Source: Effusibacillus pohliae DSM 22757
GTDB taxonomy: Bacteria > Bacillota > Bacilli > Tumebacillales > Effusibacillaceae
Length of the DNA stretch: 64,000 nt
Direction: 5' to 3'
Assembly (NCBI RefSeq): GCF_000376225.1
Contig: NZ_AQXL01000135.1
Span: forward strand, 1-64,000
Part shown: in pieces, positions 14,762-18,010 of the stretch
Position numbering within the stretch: the first letter of the stretch is position 1
Layout: each line of letters opens with the position of its first letter
Notes under the pieces: generated by a model
What the model was told of the DNA's origin: nothing
The model's input: only the letters and a program-made list of their open reading frames with translations
The model's database searches: none
Translations under genes and position numbers: made by a program

Positions 14762-15217
14762 TTATGCCCCCACGACCGACAGCACAGGTTTCTCCGGCGG
14801 CGGGGCGGACAGTTCCTTCACCGATTGGACGCCGATGTCGTCCAGCAGGATCTGCAGTTCTTTTTCATACGAGCAGCGGGCAGCTCCCTTGCTGATCTCG
14901 AGCAGGCGCAACGCGCGTGCCCGTTTTTGTTCGCGTGCCCATTTTTGGTACGCCTGGTTGTTGACGTCGCGGATCTTCTTGTGTTCCGGGCTGACGATGA
15001 CGCTCACCTGGTCCACGTTGACGATGCGCACCGTTCCTTGTTCATCCATAAACCCCAGCGCGTAAAACCGGTTGCCTGTATAATCCACGCGGGTGATCAC
15101 CGCATTGGCAAAAGACGTGCCGTCCGCCAGCGTGATTGAAGCCGCTTCGATGCACCCGCCGATCTCCTTCGTTTTTTCCAATCCGTTGTAAAAATCGATC
15201 CAACCGAACAAGTTCAT
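14762..15217 (-). CDS. Unknown 151-residue protein divergent from the encapsulin operon
   Basis: I do not recognise this family. The first 80 residues look like a compact beta-rich domain (ADGTSFANAVITRVDYTGNR, then QVSVIVSPEHKKI). A basic helical segment follows (KWAREQKRARALRLLE), then a proline-rich tail. Two cysteines are present and there is no signal peptide. The start ATG at 15217 follows GGGGGGC. Its promoter region is shared with the mini-cargo/encapsulin operon and contains a Fur-like box, so co-regulation by iron is likely. The C-terminus does not resemble the encapsulin loading tag. Confidence 0.55.
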   Translation of the reverse strand: MNLFGWIDFYNGLEKTKEIGGCIEAASITLADGTSFANAVITRVDYTGNRFYALGFMDEQGTVRIVNVDQVSVIVSPEHKKIRDVNNQAYQKWAREQKRARALRLLEISKGAARCSYEKELQILLDDIGVQSVKELSAPPPEKPVLSVVGA

Positions 15218-15233: not shown

Positions 15234-15252
15234 GGTAATGAGAATCAATATC
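15234..15252. promoter_or_regulatory. Fur-like box between the 151-residue gene and the encapsulin operon
   Basis: GGTAATGAGAATCAATATC matches 16 of 19 positions of the Fur consensus and continues into a further ATTTTCC half-site. It is 17 bases from the minus-strand start at 15217 and about 100 bases from the cargo start at 15349, so it can control both directions. Confidence 0.72.
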
Positions 15253-15348
15253 ATTTTCCAATATTCTAGCAGGAACAGCGCGGATTGTATATCCTCAGAA
15301 AAAATTGGCAAATCTGCTAGGGAGATGTTTCTGGAAAGGAGCAGAGTC

Positions 15349-15672
15349 ATGAATCCGTCTGAACAACTGATCCGGCTGGCGGAAGGGCAAAAGCGGAATA
15401 TGGAGCATTTCGTCGAGCATATGCAAGTGATTCTCCATCATGTAGAAGACAATCTGACGAAAGAACTGCTTTCCCATCTGGTTGAAGAAGAAGAAGAGCG
15501 GGCGGCCGCGATCACCGAACTGATCGAACGTTTGCGCGAGTGGCAAACGGACGGTGCTGCTGGCGCTGGAAGCGCGGGTGCAGCAGAAGACGGTCGGTCG
15601 GTCGGCGCCGATGCTGTTCAATCGACCGGCGGCGACCGGCGGTTGACCGTCGGCAGCCTGATTCAATATTAG
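15349..15672 (+). CDS. Encapsulin cargo: half-length IMEF-like iron-binding protein with C-terminal loading tag
   Basis: A 107-residue protein with three parts. Residues 1-66 form two long helices rich in His and Glu (His20, His24, His30, His31, His43 and the run VEEEEER). Residues 67-96 are a Gly/Ala/Ser linker. Residues 99-106, LTVGSLIQ, match the cargo-loading peptide of family 1 encapsulins. From memory, the Quasibacillus IMEF cargo is about 200 residues, has a similar EEEE(Q)R helix and ends in TVGSLIQ; here only the first helical hairpin remains. The ATG follows GGAAAGGA. The encapsulin shell gene starts 41 bases downstream. A dimer or higher oligomer would be needed to make a ferroxidase-type bundle. 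The tag is certain; the IMEF relationship is likely. Confidence 0.82.
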   Translation: MNPSEQLIRLAEGQKRNMEHFVEHMQVILHHVEDNLTKELLSHLVEEEEERAAAITELIERLREWQTDGAAGAGSAGAAEDGRSVGADAVQSTGGDRRLTVGSLIQY

Positions 15673-15713
15673 TCCAATTCCATATTTAGCGATTGACCAG
15701 GGAGGAGCTTTCC

Positions 15714-16559
15714 ATGGCGACAGTGCGTGTGTTTGATGCGGATATGCCGTTGACCGGCGATGAGCTTGAGCGTTTGCAAAACGTGGTGATCGAAGCCGCC
15801 AGGCGGCAGTTGGTGGGCAGACGGATCCTGGAGTTGTACGGCCCGTTGGGAGCCGGCATGCAAGGAGTTCCGGCCGACCGGTTTGATCATGTCGAACTCG
15901 CCGCAGTTGATCAGCTCGGCGAGGAAGAACAGGATGCGTTTGGCACCGGCCGGCGGGTGCAACTGACGATCCCCATTTTGTACAAGGATTTTATTTTGCA
16001 TTGGCGGGATATTGAATTGGCGAGACAACTGGGCTCGGAGATCGATTTCAGCGCGGCGGCTGGCGCGGCGTCGGTTGTGGCCGCGAAAGAGGATGACCTG
16101 ATTTTTAACGGGAATCAGGAGTTTGGCATCGAAGGCTTGACCAACGCAACCGGGCGGCTGACCCACCTGATCGAGGATTGGACGGAATCGGGCAGGGCGT
16201 ATTCGGATGTGGTGCAAATGACGACCAAATTGATCGAAAACGGGCAGTTCGGTCCCTACGCGATGGTCGTACACCCGGCCCTGTACGCAAAAATGCTGCG
16301 GGTGCATCAAGGCACCAACGTGCTGGAGATCGAGCATATCCGCGAGCTGGTGACGGCGGGCGTCTACCAATCGCCGGTGATTAAGGAAAACAGCGGTGTC
16401 ATCGTGTCGGTGGGCAGGCAGAATTTTGATCTTGCAATCGCGGAAGATCTGTCTGTTTCCTATCTGGGAGCGGAACGAATGAATTACCCGTTCCGGGTGT
16501 TCGAATGCCTGGTACCCCGGGTGAAGCGGCCGCACTCCATCTGTTCGTTCTCCACATAG
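15714..16559 (+). CDS. Encapsulin shell protein (family 1, linocin-M18-like)
   Basis: A 281-residue HK97-fold capsid protein that self-assembles into an iron-storage or redox nanocompartment. Diagnostic segments are the N-terminal arm, GRRILELYGPLGAGMQ, DLIFNGNQEFGIEGLTN, a DVVQMTTKLIENGQFGP helix and the C-terminal LGAERMNYPFRVFECLVPRV. The ATG follows GGGAGGAGC. It is the second gene of a two-gene operon after the tagged cargo, and the operon lies behind a Fur-like box. Its length matches the Firmicute IMEF-type shells, which form large T=4 particles; the actual T number needs structural work. Confidence 0.95.
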   Translation: MATVRVFDADMPLTGDELERLQNVVIEAARRQLVGRRILELYGPLGAGMQGVPADRFDHVELAAVDQLGEEEQDAFGTGRRVQLTIPILYKDFILHWRDIELARQLGSEIDFSAAAGAASVVAAKEDDLIFNGNQEFGIEGLTNATGRLTHLIEDWTESGRAYSDVVQMTTKLIENGQFGPYAMVVHPALYAKMLRVHQGTNVLEIEHIRELVTAGVYQSPVIKENSGVIVSVGRQNFDLAIAEDLSVSYLGAERMNYPFRVFECLVPRVKRPHSICSFST

Positions 16560-16672: not shown

Positions 16673-17179
16673 ATGCCAAAAGGTGCAACCGAGACGAAAA
16701 CCTTGAAAGTCGGCGACAAGGCGCCTGATTTCACTTTGAAGGCGCACGGCAACCGGACCATCACCTTGTCCGACTACCTTGGCAAGAAAAACGTATTCAT
16801 CGCGTTCTATCCCCTCGACTGGACGCCGGTCTGAGGTGCCCAGATGCCTTCGTACGAGGACGATCTGTCCAAGTTCGAAGAGTATGATACCCAAGTTTTG
16901 GGTATTAGCGTAGACAGCATTCCGAGCCATGAAGCATGGCAGAAATCGATCGGCGGCATTTCCTATCCGCTGTGCTCCGATTTCTATCCGCACGGGGAAG
17001 TGTCGAAAAAATACGGCGTGCTCCGGGAAGACCCGAACGCACCGGCGTATGGCGCAAGCGAGCGGGCATTGTTCATCATTGACAAAGAGGGGATCATCCG
17101 CTTTATCGATGTTCACCCGATCGACAAACAGCCGGATAACGAAGAACTGTTCGATGTCCTGCGCAAAATCAACAGCTAA
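16673..17179 (+). CDS. Selenocysteine-containing peroxiredoxin (AhpC/TSA, BCP-like)
   Basis: A 168-residue thiol/selenol peroxidase. The frame contains TGA at 16832-16834 exactly where the peroxidatic residue belongs (DWTPV-Sec-GAQ, Sec54; cysteine homologues read TPVC). After it the frame continues with normal peroxiredoxin sequence to TAA. The only cysteine, Cys101 in YPLCSDFYP, may be the resolving residue. The ATG at 16673 follows GAGGAGGGA. selA and selD are in the same window, supporting recoding rather than a pseudogene. It reduces peroxides and lies directly after the encapsulin operon, though with its own promoter. I could not model the SECIS hairpin confidently. Confidence 0.93.
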
Positions 17180-17314: not shown

Positions 17315-18010
17315 ATGGAAATGTCGCGGAAAGCGATTCCCTATACGCCGAATCCATTGGCCCTCAAGGATATGACGATCATGATCGTCTCCACGGCGGG
17401 CGCTCACCTGAAAGAGCAGGATCCGTTTGATACGGCGGGGGATGTGACCTACCGGGTGATTCCCGGCGATGTGAAGGCGGAAGATTTCACGGTTACGCAC
17501 GGCGCTCCGAAGGAGCATTACAACACGGATGAACCGAAGAAAGACATCAACTGCATTTTTCCGATCGACCGGCTGCGCGAACTGGCCGCGGAAGGGTTTA
17601 TCAAAGGTGTGGCGGAAAAGCATATCTCGATGATGGGCTACGCGATGCGGCTGAATCAGATCAACCAGGAAACGGTGCCGGCGATCGCGAAAGAAGTTAC
17701 CCGTTCCAAAGCCGATGCTGTTCTTTTGACAGCCGGCTGACCCCTCTGCCATCGTACCGTGGTCACGGTACAAAGGGCGATCGAGTCGCAAGGTATCCCG
17801 ACAGTGCTGATCACGCTCGATCCGGAACAATCCGGTCTGATGCGCCCGCCGCGGGCGATTCACCCGGAAGGGTTCAGATTCGGGCATTCCACCGGAAAAC
17901 CGTTCGACAAGGAAACCCAGACAGCGGTGGTGAAAGCGGCGCTTGAGCAGCTTGTGATCAAACAGGAGCCGGGACAGATTCACAGCCTGCAGTTTCCGGG
18001 GTATCAATAA
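17315..18010 (+). CDS. Selenocysteine-containing GrdB-family protein (glycine/sarcosine/betaine/proline reductase B-like)
   Basis: A 231-residue product read through TGA at 17738-17740 (Sec142). The motif is LTAG-Sec-PLCHRT, a U-x-x-C-H redox pair as in the selenoprotein B / PrdB superfamily. The sequence on both sides of the TGA is continuous and family-like (AYTPNP-type start, IPTVLITLDPE after it). It is shorter than GrdB (about 430 residues) and has no GrdA, GrdC or proprotein partner nearby, so it is a stand-alone member of unknown substrate. The ATG follows GGGAGGTG. It sits next to another Sec redox enzyme, which hints at a shared oxidative or detoxification role. Confidence 0.88.

Follow-up and report, generated by a model that had tools for sequence, protein, structure and literature searches.

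What might a tagged protein with a single helical hairpin, about half the length of the IMEF cargos, do in an encapsulin shell? This question is raised by a locus of Effusibacillus pohliae DSM 22757, lying in a window of 64,000 nucleotides (the whole stretch of DNA analyzed). The cargo ORF runs on the forward strand from an ATG at 15349 to a stop codon at 15670-15672 (15349..15672), is preceded by a good ribosome-binding site (AAAGGAG) just 5' of the ATG, and encodes 107 residues with the C-terminus ...DRRLTVGSLIQY; the last nine are LTVGSLIQY. Spacing between the cargo and encapsulin genes, both on the forward strand, is 41 bases. ORF, translation and shell match agree with a preliminary description of the locus, which placed a 107-residue cargo ending in LTVGSLIQ directly before an encapsulin gene. 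The cargo ORF is genuine and not a chance ORF, because the same tagged short form precedes the encapsulin gene in two other genomes, one from the same genus (G002; shell identity 86%) and one from another family of the same order (G011; shell identity 78%). Conservation of the short form in these three genomes from two families also rules out a frameshift truncation of a full-length cargo, a check that had been suggested at the outset.

An AlphaFold2 model of the cargo built with a 29-sequence alignment contains one hairpin, most of which has a pLDDT of about 98, formed by helix 1 (residues 3-31; 15355..15441, +) and helix 2 (residues 35-72; 15451..15564, +). The remainder is disordered in the model and comprises a low-complexity linker (15565..15642, +; pLDDT about 43-52) and the C-terminal loading tag LTVGSLIQ (15643..15666, +). 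This alignment-based model replaces a single-sequence AlphaFold2 run, which gave one long helix. Neither the translation nor the model has a four-helix unit in one chain, and the layout first described, one hairpin followed by a low-complexity linker and the tag, is borne out. The composition is indeed rich in His and Glu, and the metal ligands are not assignable from sequence alone. A Foldseek search of the PDB with the model found nothing at E<=0.001; near the top, with E above 0.2 and beside unrelated helical hairpins, were ferritin-like hairpins such as those of EncC and IMEF, an outcome to be expected of a bare hairpin. The best PDB sequence matches of the cargo are the first hairpin of IMEF (6n63; E 0.006) and EncC (E 0.007).

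The encapsulin gene (15714..16559, +) encodes a family 1 shell protein of 281 aa that, by profile and PDB matches, is closest to the shells of T=4 IMEF systems. Translation probably starts from the ATG at 15714, after GGGAGGAG, the TTG at 15693 given in the ORF list being less likely. The protein scores 278 bits against NCBIfam encap_f1 (NF041155; cut-off 100), which places it in family 1, and 214 bits against PF04454, and the nearest solved shell is the T=4 IMEF shell of Q. thermotolerans (6nj8; E 1e-94). The residues TVGSLIQ were built into the cryo-EM map of the Q. thermotolerans shell (PMC6668986), and the core of the cargo tag is letter-for-letter identical to them; the C-terminal targeting peptide on the adjacent cargo reads LTVGSLIQ in the window and LSVGSL or LSVGSM in the relatives. 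By homology, the tag would be expected to carry the cargo into this relative of the T=4 IMEF shells.

By its sequence, the cargo is IMEF-like and closest to the first IMEF hairpin, in keeping with the original view of a half-length IMEF relative: it has 107 residues and one hairpin, whereas IMEF proteins (iron-mineralizing encapsulin-associated Firmicute; PF24309, TIGR04536, PDB 6n63) have about 176-216 aa, a four-helix unit and a di-iron ferroxidase site at a dimer interface. The cargo scores 26.9 bits against the Pfam IMEF model PF24309, just below the cut-off of 27.0, with residues 12-69 aligned to model positions 6-63, and 24.2 bits against the NCBIfam IMEF model TIGR04536, far below the cut-off of 100. 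In the HMM comparison with IMEF and EncFtn that had been proposed, the cargo thus stays below the cut-offs of the curated IMEF models, and also below those of EncB and TIGR04535.

In profile comparisons the short hairpin aligns without gaps to both halves of IMEF, to helices 1-2 with a probability of 97% over 60-64 columns and to helices 3-4 with a probability of 68% (25 sequences) or 81% (40 sequences) over 48-55 columns; IMEF helices 1-2 and helices 3-4 gave no match to each other (0.1-0.4%). The score of the short hairpin against helices 3-4 was 28.5, compared with a maximum of 18.3 among 300 heptad-preserving column shuffles, and a smaller sequence set gave 26.4 observed and a maximum of 22.6 among 400 shuffles. 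The register of this alignment was identical in 21 of the 21 pairs tested. When the short cargo of G011 was compared with one fused IMEF by BLASTP, it matched both helices 1-2 (E 2e-10) and helices 3-4 (E 4e-6, 62 residues ungapped), and an HMM of IMEF helices 3-4 ranked the short cargos 1, 2 and 3 among 3558 reading frames, at modest E values of 0.01 to 0.28. EncFtn profiles match neither IMEF half, so that the bridging of the two halves is no general trait of ferritin-like hairpins. When the FxEH heptapeptide is masked, the match to helices 3-4 becomes weak, with z values ranging unevenly from -0.5 to 6, which makes it conceivable that the likeness to helices 3-4 may have arisen by convergence on the FxEH motif.

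The F21-x-E23-H24 segment of helix 1 is kept in all three short forms and in the second halves of IMEF, where helix 3 reads HNFxEH; the full HxFxEH is found in G011 alone, FxEH being common to the three. H43 and E46-E47-E48 in helix 2 show no variation among the short forms or in helix 2 of IMEF (HHIxEEEE). According to a review, IMEF builds its iron site from two His residues and two Glu residues that act as bridges, located on helices 2 and 3 (PMC11202242), and the cargo shares the conserved residues of helices 2 and 3, where these FOC ligands lie. With the turn at residues 32-34, E23 or H24 comes level with H43 in the antiparallel hairpin, and one short chain thus probably carries both IMEF ligand sets near each other. 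Cargo E48 corresponds to EncFtn E62, and R51 of the window copy to the EncFtn ligand H65 (motif numbering ours); the window and G002 copies lack ExxH, the ferroxidase motif of EncFtn, and have E48-x-x-R51 in its place, and H51 occurs in G011 only.

The proposed genome survey for short forms beside encapsulins was carried out across the class, where a shell match was found in 54 of 399 genomes. Of the 48 encapsulin loci examined, 43 distinct ones encode full-length IMEF as a fused gene and three have the short form; the other two encode a split IMEF (G079 and G275), in which helices 1-2 and helices 3-4 are encoded by tandem half-length genes, each with a C-terminal tag (L073, about 1444-2025, +; L086, -). 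The half-genes end ...SPWSVGNLRFKGE and ...RRFTVGNMINRSSTL in G079 and ...SKWTVGDLRSNKGGSHE and ...KQWTVGTLSRLEDRS in G275, where they overlap by a few bases at ATGAATAA. Like the short cargo, the split forms are half-length tagged hairpins 5' of an encapsulin gene, but they are two distinct half-genes, one per IMEF half, whereas the short cargo is a single hairpin resembling both. A phylum-wide search with a profile of the short cargo found no further short form; among its matches were an IMEF (L035), an EncFtn beside an encapsulin (L036) and one with no encapsulin within the stretch examined (L037). Scans of genome contigs with the cargo and with the shell alignment gave no confirmed relatives. 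In another genome (G095; L023 / L087, 947-2395, -) IMEF cargo, tag and encapsulin share a single open frame, 483 codons long and uninterrupted by any stop, which is either a genuine fusion of cargo and shell or an error in the sequence. To judge from the open-licence literature, in which no short or split IMEF was found, both an IMEF-lineage cargo with one hairpin and the split IMEF forms are new.

Between the cargo gene and a divergent gene lies a Fur-box-like site, TGAGAATCAATATCA, which matches TGATAATnATTATCA at 12 of 14 positions (15239..15253, +). Fur-like sites were also found upstream of many IMEF operons (13/14) and upstream of G011 (12/14), and no clear site was seen at several further loci, G002 among them. 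The divergent gene (14762..15217, -) is conserved, encodes 151 aa without a Pfam match and also stands beside the encapsulin operons of both G002 and G011; the fused-IMEF operon L005 adjoins a gene of similar appearance. No intact Ftn, Bfr or Dps was found in the genome of the window, the sole ferritin-family match being a C-terminal fragment of Dps (L038, 1486-1677, +; G000:C108) with no N-terminal part upstream, probably a remnant gene. Genomes with IMEF are mostly without Ftn and Bfr, and most of those retain Dps (PMC6668986). IMEF operons have a tagged ferredoxin, and likewise the short-form operon of G011 is flanked by a 2Fe-2S ferredoxin with the N-terminal tag MSKKLTVGSLIE (L004, 145-537, -). 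Similar tagged ferredoxins occur in L072, L076, L079 and L080, and none was found in the genome of the window.

Directly 3' of the encapsulin gene is a peroxiredoxin gene (16673-17179, +) whose codon 54, at the peroxidatic position, is an in-frame TGA (DWTPVUGAQMP), and the peroxiredoxin gene of G002 is apparently interrupted at the same place. As the genome of the window encodes tRNA-Sec and SelB, this is very likely a selenocysteine peroxiredoxin; the RNA 3' of its UGA folds just mildly better than shuffles (z -1.8). A GrdB-like gene (glycine/sarcosine/betaine reductase selenoprotein B; 17315-18010, +) is present as two ORFs, the first of which ends ...LLTAG before the stop, and is probably another selenocysteine gene.

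In our view the short protein is fairly probably an IMEF-lineage cargo with one hairpin that is loaded by its tag and pairs into a di-iron ferroxidase, IMEF being a diverged duplication of such a hairpin. The loading tag would direct the cargo into the shell, where two or more hairpins would pair to give a four-helix bundle or a larger oligomer. Pairing would bring E23/H24 of helix 1 near H43 and E46-E48 of helix 2 and so form the putative di-iron site, at which, by homology, iron would be oxidized and then stored as mineral in the shell. With one hairpin per chain, the initial suggestion that oligomerization is needed for a four-helix metal site seems sound, and the cargo is most likely an IMEF-lineage ferroxidase obliged to oligomerize inside the shell. 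The preliminary description went further in seeing here a new design for encapsulated iron storage; this is overstated, because EncFtn already forms its ferroxidase site by pairing single hairpins (PMC5012862, PMC11202242), but it holds for the IMEF lineage.

Alternatively, the short protein might be regarded as an ordinary EncFtn-type cargo, a two-helix FLP with a tag, in a Bacillota genome. It has the size and layout of EncFtn / FLP-TP (TIGR04535, EncB, EncC; PDB 5da5, 7s8t), with a two-helix hairpin, a disordered linker and a C-terminal tag, and it would share the need for pairing to build a four-helix iron site. EncFtn hairpins assemble into a decamer, a pentamer of dimers. There are also weak NCBIfam matches to EncB and TIGR04535 and a partial profile match at helix 2, and EncC is among the top sequence and fold matches. 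The scores are nevertheless far below the cut-offs (TIGR04535, 18.1 vs 125; EncB, 26.2 vs 90), no third helix is predicted, arginine replaces the histidine of ExxH in the window and G002 copies, the set of conserved residues is that of IMEF, and the shell groups with IMEF shells. A classical EncFtn identity is largely refuted by these comparisons, and we consider it quite unlikely. That the cargo is loaded but is no ferroxidase, e.g. that it serves as a scaffold or binds some other metal or ligand, is unlikely: its ligand set matches neither EncFtn nor IMEF exactly, but the invariant His/Glu set is common with IMEF, and both the Fur-like site and the lack of any other intact ferritin found in the genome speak against this reading. 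The existence of split, separately tagged half-genes in G079 and G275 allows the short cargo to be read as one half of a two-protein system, with a partner for helices 3-4 encoded elsewhere. In the split loci, however, the halves are adjacent, no gene for such a partner was found in the window or in the nearby stretches around the three short-form loci, and the short form itself bears the FxEH of the missing half, all of which makes this arrangement very unlikely.

The history of the IMEF-lineage hairpin was approached through a tree of the shells with EncFtn-type shells as the outgroup. The short-form shells form one clade (100/100), as do the split-form shells (99/95), and the shells of fused IMEF group apart with modest support (68/66); owing to a long branch, the depth of the short-form shells in the tree is unsure. 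Together with the single-hairpin cargos of the outgroup, the tree mildly favours a single hairpin first and fusion later. The simplest history, for which there is support short of a settled case, derives IMEF from such a hairpin by tandem duplication and divergence, the two-gene (G079, G275) and fused forms probably coming later. More tentatively, the short cargo itself may survive as a descendant of the hairpin that was duplicated and later fused into IMEF, in which case the single, two-gene and fused forms would record the steps. The reverse course, which we regard as doubtful, is a secondary reduction in which helices 3-4 of an IMEF were lost, helices 1-2, linker and tag were kept, and helix 1 then gained an FxEH that stands in, within a homo-oligomer, for the ligands lost with helix 3. 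Such a loss would fit the fact that IMEF helices 1-2 show the strongest likeness, one that spans the full hairpin, and that the match to helices 3-4 rests largely on the FxEH segment. It fits less well with the 62 ungapped residues over which BLASTP finds helices 3-4, with the constant register of that alignment, with the single hairpins of the outgroup EncFtn cargos and with the shell tree, on which the short forms are not nested within fused IMEF.

He et al. proposed that the four-helix ferritin fold came from gene duplication of an EncFtn-like hairpin (PMC5012862). With a bridging hairpin and split half-genes at hand, this proposal becomes testable with natural proteins of one shell lineage. 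The short cargo is at the same time a minimal candidate ferroxidase for shells whose relatives include the largest iron-storing encapsulins. If it does descend from the duplicated hairpin, the extant forms beside related shells would show how a four-helix ferritin-like fold was built from a hairpin.
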